Shown: piece after piece, positions 1,079 through 40,504 of the stretch
Layout of the letters: every line of letters begins with the position of its first letter
Numbering within the stretch: position 1 is the stretch's first letter
From: an uncultured Clostridia bacterium
Lineage (GTDB): Bacteria; Bacillota; Clostridia; Oscillospirales; CAG-272
Direction of reading: 5' to 3'
Assembly: GCA_947625805.1 (NCBI GenBank)
Contig: CANQPT010000011.1
Coordinates: forward strand, 1-47,295
DNA length: 47,295 bases
Position numbers and translations under genes: made by a program
The notes under the pieces: model-generated
The model's input: only the letters and a program-made list of their open reading frames with translations
Told to the model about the DNA's origin: nothing
The model's database searches: none

Positions 1079-3616
1079 ATGGCAAAATTCAAACGTATGT
1101 CCAAACGAGGCTTGTCTGTGATTCTGGTGTGCATGATGCTGTTGTCCTGCATGACGCCGGTAATCGCGTTGGATAGCCCGGAAAAAAATTCAGTCACTAT
1201 TACATTCCCTCAAGAATTTGATAATGTGGCTTTTTACGGTGGAAGTGATACCAAACTAACAGGCAAAAAAACACTTGTAACAAACAACCCTTCAGATAAC
1301 TTATATATGGGTTTTTTAAGTGGATATTATACTTATACTTTTTATGCTGTTCCACAAAGTGAAGGAGCAGATTCTTTCGATGAGCCAATGCCCAATCTTA
1401 GTATTAAGTCCAAGCCAGATAATATTGCAGAAAACCCGGAATATGTGAATATAGACAAAGCCGGATACGCCGTAACACTCAAACTCCCAAAATCTATAGT
1501 TATGCTACAGGGCATTGCTTTTGAAGTAACAGTCATAGATTCGGTTGAAACTTTCGATGTAAACGTTCGAACCAGCGGCGACGGATTCACGGTAGACAAA
1601 CCCGGTGTTAACCCCGTTGAAAACGAAAAGGGTTTTGAATTAACTATCACTCTCAGCCCGAGTCGCCGCGCAGGCTATAAACCGCAGGTGTATGACAATG
1701 ATACACTGATAGATGACACTAAAGTTACCTCCCTCGATAATGGCAAATCATATACGTATAAACTTGATCAGGTAACGAGTGCTCATACCATTGATGTTTC
1801 GTTGGTTCCCATTACGTTTACGGTAAAACGTGATGAAGGAACAGAAAACTGGAAAAACGTTGAAACCACTTTGCGGGATGGGGGTGAAACGGTAAACTAC
1901 GGAAGCAATTACACGTTTTCTCTTGCTCCTGTCGCGGGTCATACCCTTGCTAATGAACCTGTTACCATCACAATGGCTCAGGATAGTGCAAAAGCAAAAA
2001 CCCTTACAAAAGGCACGGACTATGTGGTAGTCGGAAATCAATATACCATCTATAACATTACCGGCGATGTTACAGTTACGCTCAAGGCAGTAACAGAACA
2101 GAAGTTCAACGTGAATTGGCCTACCGATACAGGATATACAATTGTTTCTGACAGTGGTAGTGACATTACAGCTGACGAGAAGTCAGTTGTTTATGGCGAT
2201 ACGTTCAAGTTCAAAGTTAAATTGGATCCCGCTTATAGCAAATCCGAACGCAATGTGGTCGTTACGGTAAACGGTCAGATTTTACCCGTTGGCGATGACA
2301 AAATTTACACCATTTCCGATATTAAAGAGAATAAAACCATTTTGGTGAACGGCGTTACTCTAAACACCTATAACATCACGCATATACAGACTGGAAATGG
2401 TTATACCTTTAGTTCACAGAGTTCGATGAGTAATGTCCCGCACGGTTCGTCTTTCTCTTTCACTGTTACGCCTGTAACCGGGTACACAATCGAAAGTGTT
2501 AAGTATAAGAAGTCCAGTGAAGTTGCAGATAATGGAACATCTTTAGAATCAAACGGAAACGTTTACACGATCGATAAAGTTGAAGATAACCTTACAATAA
2601 CCGTTACCGCTACGACGAGCACGTATACCCTTACTCTTCCGAATAAAGACACTGAGCGGAAGGGATATACCATAAAAATAGGCAACGAAGAGGCAGGAAA
2701 CAGCAAAGTATGCAATTACAATGATCCCGTCGAACTTACCATCGCGCCAAAAAAAGGCTATACCGTCACGGGTGTTTATAGAGTGGTAGACGGCGAAAGA
2801 TCACTGGTATATGGCGCTAATAACAACTATACGATCAGAGTAACAAGCGATATGAAAATTGTCGTTGAAACAGATACAATCAAATACACTGTTACCTATC
2901 AAGACAGCAAAGGCGGAACGACTACAAAAACATACGACGTAGAAACCGGAGTAAACCTTGAAAAAGGATCTCCCGAGATTACAGTGGATATTGCTGACCC
3001 AACACATGCTTATTACACTTTCGAAGGTTGGTCGAATGCGCAAAACTCTCAAAACTCTAATGTAAAAAAAGGCGGAACGATCGTACTCGCAACCGGCGAA
3101 ACCTCAGCTACCGTTACCGCACAGTGGACACTGAACCTTAGCGCACTTGAAACAAATACCGCAGGCGCTAGTACCAAAGCTTTAGGCGGTACTGTCACCT
3201 ATGACAAAGAAGACCACGAGAAGCTGACCATCAAGGTCACATGGAATTTGGGTGTGTTCCGCGAGGCCATCTCTGAAGTAGCCAACGCCAATTATGATAT
3301 TGTCTCCGTGGGCATCTGCTACTCCAATCAGAAAATAACCGAAACCGATACAAATTGGCAAACAAACGTAAAAAATTTAACGAACGAGAAAACGGAAAAA
3401 GAAGGCGAAGTGATAGTCAACTCGAACCAGCATCTCTACTACTATGTAGACGGCAGAGTTCTTGCCGAACAGGCGGATACCGCTACGTTTAAGTTCAGCA
3501 ACGTGAGAAAACCTCGATATGCGATCGGTTGGATCACAGTTCGGATCGGCAACAACGAAAACGATACCGTCACGCTTTACACAGGTGAAATAAGCTACAC
3601 CGAGTTCGATTCTTGA
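1079..3616 (+). CDS. large secreted repeat protein with InlB-type repeat and novel C-terminal domain
   Basis: The product (845 aa) begins with a basic, hydrophobic export signal ending near PVIA; an LLSC inside it could alternatively be a poor lipobox. Start 1079 is set by AAGGAGG (1064-1070) 8 bp upstream; the track start at 1007 lies in the leader. The middle is a series of degenerate beta-rich repeats of about 80-90 aa (GYT, an YG turn, a second GY, then a Y-x-I strand), ending with an InlB B-repeat-like unit (FEGW, TAQW). The last ~160 residues are a distinct domain (GICYSN, YYYVDGR, WITVRIG) shared with the secreted protein at 37604-40504. I see no LPXTG, SLH or C-terminal anchor, so its attachment is unclear. 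It looks like a surface adhesin or matrix protein; the ligand is unknown. Confidence 0.8.
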   Translation: MAKFKRMSKRGLSVILVCMMLLSCMTPVIALDSPEKNSVTITFPQEFDNVAFYGGSDTKLTGKKTLVTNNPSDNLYMGFLSGYYTYTFYAVPQSEGADSFDEPMPNLSIKSKPDNIAENPEYVNIDKAGYAVTLKLPKSIVMLQGIAFEVTVIDSVETFDVNVRTSGDGFTVDKPGVNPVENEKGFELTITLSPSRRAGYKPQVYDNDTLIDDTKVTSLDNGKSYTYKLDQVTSAHTIDVSLVPITFTVKRDEGTENWKNVETTLRDGGETVNYGSNYTFSLAPVAGHTLANEPVTITMAQDSAKAKTLTKGTDYVVVGNQYTIYNITGDVTVTLKAVTEQKFNVNWPTDTGYTIVSDSGSDITADEKSVVYGDTFKFKVKLDPAYSKSERNVVVTVNGQILPVGDDKIYTISDIKENKTILVNGVTLNTYNITHIQTGNGYTFSSQSSMSNVPHGSSFSFTVTPVTGYTIESVKYKKSSEVADNGTSLESNGNVYTIDKVEDNLTITVTATTSTYTLTLPNKDTERKGYTIKIGNEEAGNSKVCNYNDPVELTIAPKKGYTVTGVYRVVDGERSLVYGANNNYTIRVTSDMKIVVETDTIKYTVTYQDSKGGTTTKTYDVETGVNLEKGSPEITVDIADPTHAYYTFEGWSNAQNSQNSNVKKGGTIVLATGETSATVTAQWTLNLSALETNTAGASTKALGGTVTYDKEDHEKLTIKVTWNLGVFREAISEVANANYDIVSVGICYSNQKITETDTNWQTNVKNLTNEKTEKEGEVIVNSNQHLYYYVDGRVLAEQADTATFKFSNVRKPRYAIGWITVRIGNNENDTVTLYTGEISYTEFDS

Positions 3617-3661: not shown

Positions 3662-3811
3662 ATGAAGAAGAAACCGTATGTTTCACCGGATTTCAAGGTC
3701 GTGATATACGAATCAGAACAGGATATCATGACATATTCTACTACCCATCCTGATCCGTTCGATTCGTTTGACTCGTTTGAAGATCTGTCAGACGACGACC
3801 TTGACAAATAA
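3662..3811 (+). CDS. short YxxP[ED]-family peptide, acidic tail (peptide 1)
   Basis: The 49-residue peptide MKKKPYVSPDFKVV... lies 45 bp after the secreted protein's stop. Its N-terminal ~23 residues match the peptides at 3832 and 37580 (K-x-x-Y-x-[ST]-P-[ED]...V...[IL]M). The C-terminal half is very acidic and contains DPFDSFDSF. I prefer the start at 3662 because it aligns with the sibling peptides; upstream in-frame ATGs at 3629 and 3644 are possible, and none has a strong ribosome site. There is no signal peptide or membrane segment. The layout resembles a RiPP precursor (conserved leader, variable core), but no core modification enzyme is visible apart from the HprK-like gene upstream. 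Function unknown. Confidence 0.65.
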   Translation: MKKKPYVSPDFKVVIYESEQDIMTYSTTHPDPFDSFDSFEDLSDDDLDK

Positions 3812-3831: not shown

Positions 3832-4017
3832 ATGAGCAAGAAGTATATTTCACCGGAATTAACCGTTGTGCTTTTTGAGACAAAAGATGCATTGATGGCC
3901 GGCGCTGGCGGATACGAGAAGTCCTACGTCGACCCGTTCCAAGACAAAGCTCCTTCTCCGCCCGCCGCCGAGGGCAAGATAAAACAGGACTGGAGTCCGA
4001 TCGATAGTCTGAAGTGA
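3832..4017 (+). CDS. short YxxPE-family peptide (peptide 2)
   Basis: The 61-residue product MSKKYISPELTVVLFET... follows peptide 1 after 20 bp. It shares the leader-like block YISPELTVVLF..ALM with peptide 1 and the distant peptide 3. The C-terminal part differs: a Gly-rich AGAGG, then DPFQD, a Pro-rich stretch and a final WSPIDSLK. A DP[FL] motif downstream of the leader and an [FI]DS[FL] tetrapeptide are common to all three peptides. No export signal is evident. The stem-loop at 4028-4064 lies immediately after its stop, so the secreted protein and both peptides form one transcription unit. Function unknown; a modified or displayed peptide is a hypothesis. Confidence 0.7.
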   Translation: MSKKYISPELTVVLFETKDALMAGAGGYEKSYVDPFQDKAPSPPAAEGKIKQDWSPIDSLK

Positions 4018-4027
4018 CGCACAACGC

Positions 4028-4064
4028 GATACGCCCACGACCTGCTCTGGGTCGTGGGCGTATC
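4028..4064 (+). terminator. strong stem-loop closing the secreted-protein/peptide unit
   Basis: GATACGCCCACGACC pairs perfectly with GGTCGTGGGCGTATC (15 bp, 7-nt loop), followed by a weak T-rich run. A second 11-bp stem, GAAAGAAAGGC/GCCTTTCTTTC, follows at 4089-4119. Confidence 0.75.
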
Positions 4065-4243: not shown

Positions 4244-4975
4244 ATGGAGAGCAACAATCAAAAAACGTTGGAAATCAATTTGATACAGATTTTTTCTGTA
4301 TTATGGCATAAGGCGTGGATCCTCATTCTGGCCGCCGTTCTCTGCGGCTCGGTCGGCGTTGGTTATGCCAAATTACAAACGCCGATTTACCGTTCGCGCG
4401 TTTCCATTATGGTCAATAATACGTATGCCGTCGAAACCGGCGTTATTTCAAGCGGCGAAATATCGGTAGCGGTGCATTTGGCGCAAACGTATATTGTCTT
4501 AGTTAAGAGCGACACGATCTTAAACGACGTTCTTGAGGCGACCGGGCTCAACTATACAACCGCACAGCTTAAGAGCATGGTTTCGGCCAACGTCGTGAAT
4601 GACACCGAGATATTTGAAATATACGTCAGCGGCACCGATCCAAACCAAACGCGCCTGATCGCAAACGCTTTTCTTGAAGTCATGCCCGACCGCGTTCACG
4701 AAATTGCCGAAGGCAGTTCTCTTAAAACGGTAGATCGCGCCATTCTTCCGGGATCACAGACTTCGCCGAACGTGCCGAGAACGACGTTTCTGTTTGCTTT
4801 GATCGGAATTTTTATCAGCGCCGCGATCATTATGTTACTTGAAGTATTCAGCGATAAAATAACAGATGAGGATTATTTGATCCAGACGTACGATCTTCCT
4901 ATTCTTGCTTCCATACCAAGCATCGGAGATTCGCATAAATCATCTCGTTACAAATACGGATATTATAAAAAATAA
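4244..4975 (+). CDS. capsular/exopolysaccharide chain-length regulator (Wzz/CpsC family)
   Basis: The 243-aa product has a short cytoplasmic N-terminus, a membrane helix at about residues 17-36, an extracytoplasmic region with the Wzz signature (PIYRSRVSIMVNN), a Pro-containing segment (SQTSPNVPRT) and a second helix near 187-207 with a short cytoplasmic tail. This is the split Firmicutes arrangement, in which the membrane activator and the BY-kinase are separate proteins. It should sit in the membrane, set polysaccharide chain length and activate the kinase encoded 14 bp downstream. No glycosyltransferase or flippase genes follow in this window, so the biosynthetic genes must lie elsewhere. 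Confidence 0.9.
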   Translation: MESNNQKTLEINLIQIFSVLWHKAWILILAAVLCGSVGVGYAKLQTPIYRSRVSIMVNNTYAVETGVISSGEISVAVHLAQTYIVLVKSDTILNDVLEATGLNYTTAQLKSMVSANVVNDTEIFEIYVSGTDPNQTRLIANAFLEVMPDRVHEIAEGSSLKTVDRAILPGSQTSPNVPRTTFLFALIGIFISAAIIMLLEVFSDKITDEDYLIQTYDLPILASIPSIGDSHKSSRYKYGYYKK

Positions 4976-4989
4976 TCGGGAGAAGCGAT

Positions 4990-5742
4990 ATGTCTGATAA
5001 GAGCAAAAAACAAAAAGAGTATACGGCCCTTGAAATAGAAGATGCGTTCCCGATGGGTCAACATCTCAGCTTTGCCGCAACCGAGGCATACAAACGACTG
5101 CGTTCATCGTTGATCTTCTGTTTGCCCAAAAATGAAAATAAAAACTGCCGTATCGTGGGTATCACAAGCAGTAACGTGGGCGAAGGCAAAAGCACTACCG
5201 CGTTCAACCTTGCGTATTCGATTGCCGAAAGCGACCAGCGCGTGCTTTGTCTGGAGGCGGATATGCGCCTTCCGCAGATTTCCAAACGCTTGAATTTAGA
5301 GACCTCACCGGGTCTTAGCGAGTGTCTGGCCGGTGAAGTCCTGGAAGGAAACGACGCCATTCGGAAAATCAACAACAATTTATACGTTATGCCGTCGGGC
5401 AGAGTTCCGCCCAATCCTTCCGAACTTTTGGGCTCGTCGGCAATGAGCCGCCTGCTTGAGCTTTTGTCGCAGGTTTTCAGCTTTATTGTGATTGATCTTC
5501 CGCCGATTGGAGCCGTTGTGGACGCGCTCAACGTGGCCAAACAGGTGGACGGTATGGTTATGGTCGTCCGCAGAGAATGGGCGACGCGCCGTTCTCTTGC
5601 AAGCGCGGTGCGCGAACTCAAACTTGCCGACGCGCGTCTTTTGGGATTTGTCTTTAACGACGCAACGGAAGGAAGCAAAAAGCCTAAAAAATACAAGGGC
5701 TATAAAAAATATTCAAAATACTACTATACAAAACAGGATTGA
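4990..5742 (+). CDS. bacterial tyrosine kinase (BY-kinase, CpsD/CapB family)
   Basis: The 250-aa product has Walker A SNVGEGKSTT near residue 62, Walker A' CLEADMR near 88 and Walker B VIDLPP near 165. It ends in a Tyr/Lys-rich cluster (KKYKGYKKYSKYYYTKQD) that is the expected autophosphorylation tail. In this family the kinase is soluble, is activated by the cytoplasmic end of the CpsC-type protein, and its phosphorylation cycle controls polysaccharide polymerisation. It sits between the CpsC-like gene and the phosphatase that would reverse its modification. Confidence 0.92.
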   Translation: MSDKSKKQKEYTALEIEDAFPMGQHLSFAATEAYKRLRSSLIFCLPKNENKNCRIVGITSSNVGEGKSTTAFNLAYSIAESDQRVLCLEADMRLPQISKRLNLETSPGLSECLAGEVLEGNDAIRKINNNLYVMPSGRVPPNPSELLGSSAMSRLLELLSQVFSFIVIDLPPIGAVVDALNVAKQVDGMVMVVRREWATRRSLASAVRELKLADARLLGFVFNDATEGSKKPKKYKGYKKYSKYYYTKQD

Positions 5743-5763: not shown

Positions 5764-6471
5764 ATGTTGATTGATTTTCATTCTCATATTCTTCCCGGGA
5801 TCGACGACGGTGCGGCGGATCTTTCCGTAAGTCTGGAACTGATCGCCTCATCTGCGAAACAAGGCGTTGGGCTTATGGCGGCAACGCCTCATTTCTACCC
5901 GTATCGCGTTGGATTTGACACGTTCTTTCAAAATCGCGCAAGGGCTTTCGATGCAGTATCGGAAGTCTTGCCGGCCGGGTCGCCTCATATCCTGCCGGGT
6001 GCGGAAGTGGGCTATTTCAAAGGAATCAGTCAAGTATCCGAAGCCGAACGGTTGGGACTGGGAAACACGGGGATTCTCCTATTGGAAATGCCGTTTGAGC
6101 GGTGGGATAAGAGCGTGATATCCGAAGTCGTGGACTTACACCAAAGCGGCGGGGTGACCGTGTTGATCGCGCACATTGAACGATACATAGACTATCAGAA
6201 ACATAACGCTGTGCAAGAACTGCTCAACTCCGGGATCTATTTTCAATCAAACGCAGAGTTCTTTTTGAATAAGAGGCAAAAAAAGACAGCGCTTAAGATG
6301 TTGGAGCGCGGGCAGATCCACGTCTTAGGGTCGGACTGCCACAATATGACCGATCGCAAACCCAATCTGGGCGAGGCCGTTCGCGTTATAACCGACGCAT
6401 TCGGCGCGTCGGCGGTCGATGCGATTGACACGTTCGGCGCAAATCTTTTGTCAGGTGAAATTCCAAAGTAA
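5764..6471 (+). CDS. PHP-domain protein-tyrosine phosphatase (CpsB/CapC family)
   Basis: The 235-aa product starts with DFHSHILPGIDDG and carries TPHFYP, IAHIERY and GSDCHN, the metal-binding motifs of PHP phosphatases of the CpsB/YwqE type. It should dephosphorylate the Tyr-rich tail of the neighbouring BY-kinase, completing a C-D-B module. ATG 5764 follows a GGCGGG-like weak ribosome site. The stop codon lies inside the terminator stem. Confidence 0.92.
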   Translation: MLIDFHSHILPGIDDGAADLSVSLELIASSAKQGVGLMAATPHFYPYRVGFDTFFQNRARAFDAVSEVLPAGSPHILPGAEVGYFKGISQVSEAERLGLGNTGILLLEMPFERWDKSVISEVVDLHQSGGVTVLIAHIERYIDYQKHNAVQELLNSGIYFQSNAEFFLNKRQKKTALKMLERGQIHVLGSDCHNMTDRKPNLGEAVRVITDAFGASAVDAIDTFGANLLSGEIPK

Positions 6472-37271: not shown

Positions 37272-37387
37272 AAAAGGAACGGCGTGTGCCGCTTTGATCT
37301 GAAGGTAAAGTCTTAGAAAGGGCTTTGTTTTGAGGGAAAATTTACAACAAAGGGACTTTGTGGTTAAGCGCACAAAGTCCCTTTGTT
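37270..37387. repeat. dispersed hairpin repeat, copy 2 (convergent terminator)
   Basis: AAAAAAGGAACGGCGTGTGCCG, then after a longer spacer AACAAAGGGACTTTGTG/CACAAAGTCCCTTTGTT (17-bp stem, loop GTTAAGCG) and TTTT. It is homologous to 31514-31590. Confidence 0.8.
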
Positions 37388-37436: not shown

Positions 37437-37580
37437 TCATTCGCCGAAAAAGGTTTCTTCGTCCAGCAAAGAATCAAAGCCAAGGGGATCGGTGTCGGAG
37501 CCGTTAAAATCGTCCATGATCTCCTTGTCGGTCGCAAAGTGATATACGATCATCTCGGGAGTTTCGTACTGTGTTTTCAT
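37437..37580 (-). CDS. short YxxPE-family peptide (peptide 3), absent from the ORF track
   Basis: The 47-residue reading frame MKTQYETPEMIVYHFATDKEIM... has a good ribosome site (AAAGGAG) about 10 bp before ATG 37580 and begins 23 bp after the stop of the 966-aa secreted protein. It shares the K-x-x-Y-x-[ST]-P-E...V...IM leader-like block with peptides 1 and 2. Its acidic tail has DTDPLGFDSLLDEETFF. No export signal or membrane segment. The conservation of leader and of gene position makes it a real gene despite its size. Confidence 0.75.
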   Translation of the reverse strand: MKTQYETPEMIVYHFATDKEIMDDFNGSDTDPLGFDSLLDEETFFGE

Positions 37581-37603: not shown

Positions 37604-40504
37604 TTAAACGTTATCGGGCATCAGCTGAGTGCTCGTCTCCGCGGTGACCACATAAATCTTTCCGTTGATACGCAGGGTTACGAAGGCCATGACGTACCGC
37701 TCCTCGTTTTTCGGAATATCTTTCATGGTGAAGTTGATGTTGCTGGCAATATAAGCATCGAAAGAAAAATCTCTGCCCGCTACGTAGTAGTATACGCCCT
37801 TTGGACTATTTTGAAGAACCGTCGATGGCTGTCGGTTTTTCCACTCGTAGTCACCATTATCAACCTCGTAATTCTGTTTGGCAATTTCATCTTTTACTTG
37901 ATCCGCCGTAAAGGAGCCATCCGCATAAACAAAGCCAAACGCCAGAATCTTCGCGTTTTTCAGATCTTCTTGATACTTGAACTCTGCGCCGTCTCCCCCG
38001 GTCGAGTCCCATCCAAACCGGAATGCATTCGTATACTTGCCATCCTGTTCACCCTGTGTAGGTGGATCCGTTTTTACATCTACCTGCACCATTTTCTGAA
38101 CGGCCTCATCAGGAACATACCACAAGGCCGTCAAGTGGATCTCCGTGCCTTTCTTGAAGTCGCTGTTGATGGTCAGTGTCTGCCCGTCCTCGGAAAGGGT
38201 ACAACCGACTGGAGCTTGGTCCGTAAACTCCCATCCGCCGAATTCGTACTTGACCGTTTCTTCATCATCGTTCATGATGTCGTCAAGCGTTTTCAGCGTG
38301 ACGGTCATGGTGCCATCGGCCACTTGCACATTCTCATCCTCGGAGGTGTACGTCTCCTGCGTGGTCTTGGGTTCGCTTTCACTCTTATCGTCCGTGTAGG
38401 AAACGGTGTACGTGTTGGGGGTCTTATCGAAGATCGGGTACAGGTCGCAGTTGGTGTAGATCGCCTCGACCGGGTTGCCCTTCCGGTCACCCCAACACTT
38501 GAAGGTGTAGGTGTACTGAACGTCGGCAGGCTTTTCGGGTTTGCTCACGTCCTTGAGAAGTGCGAAGACTTCGTTCGGGGTCTTGAGCGCGCCGCGCTGG
38601 ACGTTGTTCGAGTTACTAGTACCTTGGACAACGTTCACATTAGTATACTCGTATTTCACGGGCTCGGCGATCGGCTCCCCGTCTTCACCGTGGAAGGTCA
38701 CGGTCGGCTGTAGGTTGTCCTGAATGACCGCCAACATGGTGAAGGTTGCGTTCGAATTTTCGTTTTTCGGCTCTCTTTGGTTGTTTTCATCGTAAAAATG
38801 TGTTGCATGACTGTTAAAGATCGAAAATTCGCTGACCGCACTTGCGGTATACACACCGTTCATGCCGTTCAATCTCGAATTGATATAAAAGTAATAGTAT
38901 CCGTTTTTCAGGTCAAGTACGCTGGGGGCTTTTCCGTCGTTCGAGTCCGCGGGTGAGCCCCATTGCCAAGATTGACCGCGCAGACCATCATTACCATTTG
39001 AATCCAGACCCCACATTTTGACGTACACATCATCCGCGATGATAGTCTTGTCGGCATCCACTCCGTCAATCTTGTAGACCAGCGTGATACCGGTACCGCC
39101 GTGCAGAGCCACCTTCTCCTGCAAGAAATTCTGTTTTGCGGCGGGGTTGTTGATGGTTTGTGTGGTCGGTTTTTCGTAGACGATACCGTATTTGTCGTAG
39201 GAGGCTACGAAGGTTACGTCATCGACGTAAACATAGGTTGCGGGATTCACAAGTGTTCCGTCCGAGCCTTGCACCGTCCAGCCCTTAAAGGTGTAGGCAT
39301 ACACGCCGTCGTGCTTACTCAGGTTCGGCACTTGCGGGACTTCCCCGTCCAGTTTACCTTGATTTGCGGAAAGTTGCTTAATTGTCGTTCCGTCATCGTC
39401 GAGGAAAGTGACCGTGTACTCCGTCTCTCCGGAAGCCGTCTTGTAGTACGGGAAAAGATCGACGTCCTCGTAGATGTAGTCAATCCGGTTGCCCGCCTCG
39501 TCACCCCAGTAATCAAACACGTAATAGGTCTCACCTTCCGGCTCCTTGGCGGGAAGAGTGGGGTGTTCGTCCAACAGCGCGTACACTTCGTTCGGTGTCT
39601 TGAGCGCGCCACGCTGTACGTTGTTCGAGTTATTAGTACCTTGGACAACGTTCACATTGGTATACTCGTATTTTATGGGCTCGGCGATCAGCTCCCCGTC
39701 TTCACCGTGGAAGGTGACGGTCGGCTGTAGATTGTCCTGAATGACCGCCAGCATGGTGAAAGTTGCGTTTGAATTGTTGTTTAACGGGTCTCTTTTGTTG
39801 TGTTCATCGTAAAAATGTGTTGCATGACTGTTAAAGATGGAAAATTCGCTGACCGCACTCGCGGTATACACACCGTTCATGCCGTTCAATCTCGAATTGA
39901 TATAAAAGTAATAGTATCCGTTTTTCATGTCAAGCACGCTGGGGGCTTTTCCGTCGTTCGACTCTGCGGGCAAGCCCCATTGCCAAGATTGACCGCGCAG
40001 ACCATCATTACCGTTTGAATCCAGACCCCACAATTTGACGTACACATCATCCGCGATGATAGTCTTGTCGGCATCCACTCCGTCAATCTTGTAGACCAGC
40101 GTGATACCGGTACCGCCGTGCAGCGGAACTTTCTCAGGTAAAAGATCCTGCTTGGTACCATCAGGGTTTTTGATTGTAATCGGTTTCGGGTCTACGAAAT
40201 ACACACCGCCCCCGTCTGCCGCCTTTGTTTGCACTTCATCATCTGTGTCCGCGTCCGTGGCGGTCAATTCCGCTTCCGGGACGGCGTCCGGCGTGTCCGC
40301 GCTCGCAGTGGTTTCCGCGCCGACGGAAGAGTCTGCTTCATCCGCGGCGGCGATTTCCTGCCCCACGGGCTGTACGCTTGCCGACAGGGTTTCTTCAGCC
40401 GCGCTTTCGACGGTTTGTGCGCCGACGGAAAAGCTCGCAACAGGCGTTACGGAAACGACTGTCACAATCGCCAGCAAAAGCGCCAACAACTCTTTCTTCA
40501 TCAT
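37604..40504 (-). CDS. large secreted repeat protein with internal tandem duplication
   Basis: The 966-aa product has a signal peptide ending near FSVGA, an Ala/Glu/Asp-rich linker to about 105, then two near-identical modules of 180 aa (KVPLHGGTGITLVYKIDGVD, DVYVKLWGLDSNGND, WQWG, YYYFYINSRLNGMNGVY, EFSIFNSHATHFYDE). InlB-like beta domains (TYVFDYWGDEAGN, YTFKGWTVQGS) come between and after them. The final ~165 aa resemble the C-terminus of the 845-aa protein at 1079 (YYYVAGR, YVMAFVTLRING). The modules with Trp/Tyr-rich faces look like carbohydrate-binding domains, which is inference. Ribosome site GGAGG lies 5 bp before ATG 40504. No LPXTG or SLH anchor. Confidence 0.8.
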   Translation of the reverse strand: MMKKELLALLLAIVTVVSVTPVASFSVGAQTVESAAEETLSASVQPVGQEIAAADEADSSVGAETTASADTPDAVPEAELTATDADTDDEVQTKAADGGGVYFVDPKPITIKNPDGTKQDLLPEKVPLHGGTGITLVYKIDGVDADKTIIADDVYVKLWGLDSNGNDGLRGQSWQWGLPAESNDGKAPSVLDMKNGYYYFYINSRLNGMNGVYTASAVSEFSIFNSHATHFYDEHNKRDPLNNNSNATFTMLAVIQDNLQPTVTFHGEDGELIAEPIKYEYTNVNVVQGTNNSNNVQRGALKTPNEVYALLDEHPTLPAKEPEGETYYVFDYWGDEAGNRIDYIYEDVDLFPYYKTASGETEYTVTFLDDDGTTIKQLSANQGKLDGEVPQVPNLSKHDGVYAYTFKGWTVQGSDGTLVNPATYVYVDDVTFVASYDKYGIVYEKPTTQTINNPAAKQNFLQEKVALHGGTGITLVYKIDGVDADKTIIADDVYVKMWGLDSNGNDGLRGQSWQWGSPADSNDGKAPSVLDLKNGYYYFYINSRLNGMNGVYTASAVSEFSIFNSHATHFYDENNQREPKNENSNATFTMLAVIQDNLQPTVTFHGEDGEPIAEPVKYEYTNVNVVQGTSNSNNVQRGALKTPNEVFALLKDVSKPEKPADVQYTYTFKCWGDRKGNPVEAIYTNCDLYPIFDKTPNTYTVSYTDDKSESEPKTTQETYTSEDENVQVADGTMTVTLKTLDDIMNDDEETVKYEFGGWEFTDQAPVGCTLSEDGQTLTINSDFKKGTEIHLTALWYVPDEAVQKMVQVDVKTDPPTQGEQDGKYTNAFRFGWDSTGGDGAEFKYQEDLKNAKILAFGFVYADGSFTADQVKDEIAKQNYEVDNGDYEWKNRQPSTVLQNSPKGVYYYVAGRDFSFDAYIASNINFTMKDIPKNEERYVMAFVTLRINGKIYVVTAETSTQLMPDNV
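38568..39106 (-). repeat. intragenic direct repeat, copy A
   Basis: This ~539-bp stretch is nearly identical to 39585-40123 at a constant offset of 1017 bp (339 codons), so the duplication is in frame. Confidence 0.9.
39585..40123 (-). repeat. intragenic direct repeat, copy B
   Basis: Partner of 38568-39106. Differences are scattered single bases (for example TTACTAGT against TTATTAGT), consistent with a recent duplication or ongoing gene conversion. Confidence 0.9.

Follow-up and report, generated by a model that had tools for sequence, protein, structure and literature searches.

The window analysed here, a 47,295-nt stretch from a contig of an uncultured Clostridia bacterium, encodes two large secreted proteins of 845 and 966 aa. 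An earlier note on this DNA had proposed that these otherwise different proteins end in a common domain, which might anchor them or interact with a peptide. This raises the questions of whether the resemblance reflects true homology, where else the domain occurs and what accompanies it. The features of the two loci are collected in Table 1.

Table 1. Features of the two cassettes and their surroundings in the window
Feature	Position	Strand	Basis or remark
HprK-like kinase, 238 aa	136..852	+	ATG at 136; ORF opens at 124
845-aa secreted protein, signal sequence and InlB/List_Bact-like repeats	1079..3616	+	
Shared C-terminal domain, residues 683-845 of the 845-aa protein	3125..3613	+	Profile homology, AlphaFold model
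YxxP precursor-like peptide 1, 49 aa, MKKKPYVSPDFKVVIYESEQDIM...	3662..3811	+	Starts 46 nt past the stop of the 845-aa gene
YxxP precursor-like peptide 2, 61 aa, MSKKYISPELTVVLFETKDALM...KQDWSPIDSLK	3832..4017	+	
Terminator-like hairpin, 17 pairs, right behind peptide 2	4028..4064	+	Pattern match only
Wzz-like capsule regulation gene	4244-4975	+	
AAA_31/ParA-type ATPase, capsule regulation	4990-5742	+	
CpsB/CapC phosphatase, capsule regulation	5764-6471	+	
Terminator-like hairpin, 17 pairs, behind the 47-aa peptide	37346..37387	-	Pattern match only
YxxP precursor-like peptide, 47 aa, MKTQYETPEMIVYHFATDKEIM...	37437..37580	-	Starts 24 nt past the stop of the 966-aa gene
966-aa secreted protein	37604..40504	-	Paralogs at G000:C12 and G000:C17
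Shared C-terminal domain, residues 795-966 of the 966-aa protein	37607..38122	-	Alignment, hhalign, AlphaFold model
Promoter-like site	40598-40570	-	Pattern match only; opens the two-gene 966-aa unit

The C-termini of the two secreted proteins are homologous

The last ∼160 residues of the two proteins had been described as aligning in several blocks. The coordinates and sequence blocks quoted for both proteins were correct, and ∼165 residues were found to be homologous. Direct BLASTP comparison of the two C-termini gave 31.6 bits (E = 2e-4), and a profile-profile comparison, as the earlier note had proposed, placed the three 966-type copies of this genome on the corresponding part of the 845-aa protein (hhalign E = 1.6e-4, probability 50). 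The 845-aa protein also matched the paralog of the 966-aa protein encoded on contig C12 (BLASTP E = 4e-8, 27% over 249 aa), in an alignment spanning the last List_Bact-like repeat and the domain. The first pairwise score was weak, and once in 20,000 trials a shuffled sequence outscored the match to the three-sequence 966-type profile, as might be expected if the resemblance arose by chance or by convergence of β-rich sequences of low specificity. However, a ten-member profile that excluded the 845-aa protein and its nearest relative scored 42.2 bits against the 845-aa C-terminus, while the best of 20,000 shuffles reached 17.1. Position, motif order and genomic partner are shared as well. Chance or convergence thus appears very improbable. 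The comparison of these two scores was decisive: the homology is real and the two C-termini are one homologous domain.

As had been claimed, the regions upstream of the domain differ. Their only common part is a sub-threshold repeat resembling InlB B-repeats/List_Bact_rpt (PF09479, TIGR02543); in both window proteins this repeat precedes the domain, and it is not what makes the C-termini alike. The domain was somewhat better conserved than the remainder of the protein in all four pairs compared; in every member it is the last part of the protein. The secreted proteins have a signal-like N-terminus. It found no family match in Pfam or NCBIfam, and the domain profile matched no sequence in the PDB either; sub-threshold Pfam/NCBIfam matches to the MtrC N-domain, Rha, MazE and others were not used. 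The 966-aa protein also contains a module of ∼340 residues, present twice, with a weak signal for the MtrC/MtrF N-terminal domain (E = 6.6e-5, below the cut-off); the C12 paralog shares this module (L009, 3909-7154). The statement that the window proteins have no LPXTG, SLH or membrane tail also held: no LPXTG-like motif, Pfam SLH match or hydrophobic C-terminal segment was detected in either, and a hydrophobic C-terminal tail was absent from all 11 family members examined.

The domain is predicted to form a β-sandwich

AlphaFold, run with eight sequences, modelled the domain of the 845-aa protein as a seven-stranded β-sandwich (pLDDT 74.7, pTM 0.75). The domain of the 966-aa protein gave a similar but weaker β-sandwich (mean pLDDT 62, pTM 0.63), so that confidence in the models is low to moderate. 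Both models had a helical insert after the third strand, and both matched FN3 and Ig domains with Z about 7–8, which the tool grades as middling, and with Foldseek E above 1e-3. Unrelated folds, which the earlier note had named as the observation that would speak against a common domain, were not what the models showed: each was placed in the same β-sandwich class by its own FN3/Ig matches, even though one of them had a pLDDT of 62. The domain is thus probably an FN3/Ig-like β-sandwich; the assignment is probable rather than proven because the matches are middling and come without a sequence family. MtrC, ApaG, cytokine receptors and nanobodies came up in Foldseek, but at these E and Z values none of them was regarded as a relative. 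The β-sandwich models and their Z values liken the domain to the FN3/Ig-like terminal domains of bacterial secreted proteins; it differs from these in belonging to no Pfam/NCBIfam family, in its helical insert and in its near-exclusive pairing with the YxxP peptides described below.

Occurrence of the domain in this genome and in other Clostridia

The genome to which the window belongs contains four copies of the domain, i.e. those of the 845-aa and 966-aa proteins and those of two paralogs of the latter, encoded on contigs C12 (1081 aa) and C17 (at least 348 aa, running into the contig end). These paralogs showed 51–54% identity to the 966-aa protein in the C-terminal region. A further match on contig C3 (L003/L005) was weak, belonged to an SLH-type protein and was dropped. 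Inspection of 395 genomes of the same family revealed no convincing further copies beyond the two genomes behind a five-sequence profile; weak matches (E 0.006–0.09) were short, internal or in broken frames and were taken as noise. The same profile detected six new copies among 394 genomes of the same order (G578, G747, G707, G570, G491 and G517), and matches in G617, G096, G579, G715, G696, G039 and G626 were set aside on the same grounds. Two more occurrences, in Clostridium methylpentosum DSM 5476 and in a MAG from rabbit gut, came from GTDB contigs searched by way of the kinase. Among the 10 loci whose kinase is nearest to that of the window, six had the domain; the other four are short or carry the kinase close to the end of a contig. 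In the remaining 70 loci the domain was not found. Relatives of the domain are sparse in other Clostridia, C. methylpentosum included.

A YxxP peptide gene follows nearly all domain genes

In 11 of the 13 loci containing a domain gene, a gene for a peptide with a YxxP leader was found 20–46 nt behind it. In G517 this gap was 139 nt. In G747 no peptide gene adjoined the domain gene, and a YxxP peptide accompanied by an RRE and a radical-SAM-like protein was encoded ∼2.4 kb away on the other strand. The G747 domain protein is 2453 aa long. Its peptide (L087, 8686-11284) has a Gly/Cys-rich core (SGSGCGCDVPDC), the radical-SAM-like ORF has 457 aa, and the whole looks like a different YxxP RiPP type.

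The specificity of the association was assessed in 87 loci containing 750 large genes. A YxxP peptide at the same spacing followed 10 of 12 domain genes vs one of 738 other large genes. The loci behind these counts had been selected for their kinase or domain and are not a random sample, and the peptide pattern was derived from those same peptides. The cleanest evidence for the pairing is provided by the order-level copies, found by the domain alone: five of the six had the peptide directly downstream, the sixth being the G747 copy. The earlier note had considered that the domain might occur mostly without YxxPE peptides nearby; the opposite was observed. Both this result and the modelled folds favour a link of the domain with the peptides. 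The interpretation given in the earlier note is thereby partly supported, with binding of the peptide or anchoring of the protein as a putative function of the domain.

The genome of the window shows the same association in its paralogous copies. The 47-aa peptide has two near-identical copies elsewhere in the genome, so that three 966-type domains stand against exactly three matching near-identical peptides. The units of the 966-aa protein and the C12 paralog have the same promoter type and the same spacer, and in both window cassettes the last peptide gene is followed by a terminator-like hairpin (pattern matches only in each case). The 966-type cassettes sit among housekeeping genes, with no adjoining maturation genes. 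The 845-aa cassette is directly followed by the capsule genes coding for Wzz, the AAA_31 ATPase and CpsB/CapC.

Outside this clade, YxxP peptides were observed to start 14–30 nt behind genes for large secreted proteins of 472–2825 aa (loci L114, L129, L130, L132, L146 and L174). Since these peptides also follow secreted-protein genes, the pairing of a secreted protein with a YxxP peptide may be a wider rule in Clostridia. Homology between the domain and the C-termini of the secreted proteins preceding outside-clade YxxP peptides (in T. cocleata and others) was not detected, except for G517. The last strands of those C-termini look similar to those of the domain, although this is an impression only. 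Without detectable homology there, the partner of the peptide may be the secreted protein as a whole instead of the domain.

The peptides resemble RiPP precursors of the LPP type

All 14 peptides examined contain the YxxP motif, which also served to recognise them. Thirteen of them have [IVL]M exactly 17 residues past the Tyr, and 13 have [FYL][EA][TSAP] at the place that aligns with the FET end of the LPP leader. In LPPs the leader ends in F-E-T and the phospho-acceptor is the Ser at core position 3 (PMC13381572). The leaders found here are three residues shorter from Tyr to Thr, the Tyr lying 13 residues before the leader end (16 in LPPs). Assuming a cut behind the FET-like residues, Ser at core position 3 was found in none of the 14 peptides, and strict membership of the LPPs fails for this reason. 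In 13 of the 14 a D[PD] motif has a Ser/Thr a short way in front of it, which is a candidate phospho-acceptor. Their layout and the HprK kinase nearby make these peptides resemble RiPP precursors, a point absent from the earlier note. In C. methylpentosum, where the secreted protein has 874 aa, the precursor begins MKKAYQAPELEVVLFES...

The cores vary strongly between species, while paralogous peptides within the same genome are nearly identical. An antibacterial function is common among RiPP precursors, and this strong variation would suit a bacteriocin-like peptide that is carried, presented or neutralised outside the cell by the secreted protein and its domain. However, the near identity of the paralogs speaks against such a role, and an unsystematic look at the neighbourhoods brought up no immunity gene; we consider a bacteriocin quite improbable. 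Peptide 2 of the window and the second peptide of G578 (L086, 9570-9746), a genome from another family of the order, have unlike middles and end in the same 11 residues (KQDWSPIDSLK).

Maturation genes and known peptide systems

The core set described for LPPs comprises an HprK-like kinase, a PqqD-type RRE, an archaeal-type SpI, NTP_transf_5 and an MsbA-like ABC transporter (PMC13381572). The kinase was found in the window and at loci L032, L086, L088, L089, L090, L097 and L100. The window kinase gave sub-threshold NCBIfam matches to ScmC (4.5e-7) and HprK_rel_A (1.5e-4); its P-loop (GTGKST) is kept in six relatives and a second copy, 59% identical, is present on contig C6 of the same genome. 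The window contig has no RRE, and no SpI lies beside the kinase gene; the contig begins just upstream of that gene. The RRE (PF05402) was detected in the loci of relatives and on C6, and the SpI in the loci of relatives (sub-threshold TIGR02228) and, by profile search, on contig C28 of the window's own genome, away from the cassettes. NTP_transf_5 and the transporter were both present in L096 and L097, and the transferase alone in L104; in the window's own genome only two distant NTP_transf_5-like matches were obtained. G173 combined HprK, RRE and SpI with an NTP transferase, and C. methylpentosum and G707 contained the full LPP core set. These core genes were located beside the cassettes, divergent from them, or in trans.

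Two further arrangements were noted. On C6 (L051, 3475-7167) the second HprK and the RRE lie behind genes for a VanW-like protein, an AMP-binding enzyme and a small carrier-protein-like ORF and before rpoC, and no YxxP peptide of the cassette type was noticed alongside. In G329 (L039, 8148-12076) an LPP-like cluster is followed by three ORFs of 305–704 aa with related C-termini.

The arrangement shares with LPPs the YxxP leader with its FET-like end, the HprK kinase, the discrete PqqD-type RRE, the archaeal-type SpI, NTP_transf_5, the MsbA-like ABC transporter and the setting in capsule loci. Besides the shorter leader and a core position 3 that is never Ser, it differs in that the peptide gene comes directly after that of a large secreted protein whose C-terminal domain is shared, and in that cassettes can lie far from maturation genes. 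From these comparisons the peptides are best described as an LPP-like variant, not as proven LPPs. The paeninodin-type phosphorylated lasso peptides likewise have an HprK-like kinase, a discrete RRE and an NTP transferase, but WxxP is said to be typical of paeninodins, whereas the precursors here have YxxP. Neither a macrolactam synthetase nor a B2 peptidase, as in lasso peptide clusters, was noticed among the ORFs listed for L095-L104.

The main text of the LPP paper (PMC13381572) gave no match for 'surface', 'secreted', 'Ig-like' or 'S-layer', and no report of a secreted partner of LPPs was found among open-licence papers. The LPP-type pathway is already known, and what appears to be new here is a secreted-protein partner with a shared domain.

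The maturation genes also bear on whether the small peptide, instead of being a RiPP precursor, could assist the secreted protein from within the cytoplasm, for instance as a secretion chaperone or a translation-coupled regulator, with YxxP as a shared binding motif only. The setting of the 966-type cassettes among housekeeping genes and the missing core Ser3 would suit such a function. Full LPP core sets beside or divergent from cassettes in several species speak against it, as does the retention of the RRE, kinases and SpI in the window's own genome, making a cytoplasmic partner unlikely.

A proposed role for the cassette

The reading that we prefer, with a probability of roughly 0.4, is that a secreted protein and a RiPP-like precursor form a cassette of two (sometimes three) genes and that, on the cell surface, the mature peptide and the shared domain work together. 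The RRE would bind the YxxP leader and the HprK-like kinase would phosphorylate a core Ser/Thr, the one shortly before DP[FW] being the candidate, although this acceptor is a guess. An SpI-type peptidase would then cut behind the leader, and the core would be exported. In the least certain steps, the mature peptide and the C-terminal β-sandwich would act as a pair at the surface, and the peptide, perhaps carrying a phosphate or a capsule-linked sugar-phosphate, would dock on the domain and so hold or arm the secreted protein. In the genome of the window, one or two maturation loci would serve the four scattered cassettes in trans.

The domain is proposed as the docking site because it is the sole part common to two secreted-protein architectures and because its conservation slightly exceeds that of the remaining sequence in four pairs; docking or anchoring by the domain may be envisaged. 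The same two observations, together with its almost perfect tracking of the peptide, argue against the domain being a mere terminal FN3/Ig-like adhesin module, with a peptide that is co-transcribed, so as to be produced under the same conditions as the protein, but makes no contact with the domain and acts alone, e.g. on the capsule or as a signal. In favour of this alternative, the fold is generic, further YxxP peptides are found behind secreted proteins whose C-termini look unrelated, and LPP and lasso clusters often lie in capsule loci with no described secreted partner. An independent adhesin module is a serious possibility, held more tentatively than joint action of domain and peptide. 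The docking proposal itself has to accommodate the absence of Ser3, the lack of an adjacent peptide in G747, the 966-type cassettes with no neighbouring maturation genes, the window kinase with no RRE or SpI at its side, and the outside-clade C-termini in which no homology to the domain was detected. A more specific form of it, rather unlikely as it stands, is a detachable surface anchor: a phosphorylated or glycan-linked RiPP of the LPP type would tie the secreted protein to the capsule or wall via the β-sandwich, with one maturation locus serving several cassettes in trans.

According to the paper describing LPPs, the biological role of these and related phosphorylated lasso peptides is unknown (PMC13381572). 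A secreted protein encoded right before the precursor and ending in a constant domain offers a testable physical partner, and is a first lead on what the peptide does. Since the pairing is present in the cultured C. methylpentosum DSM 5476, with the five core genes alongside, it is open to experiment. If true, the proposal would explain how a class of large secreted proteins of gut bacteria could be retained at the surface without LPXTG, SLH or a membrane tail.
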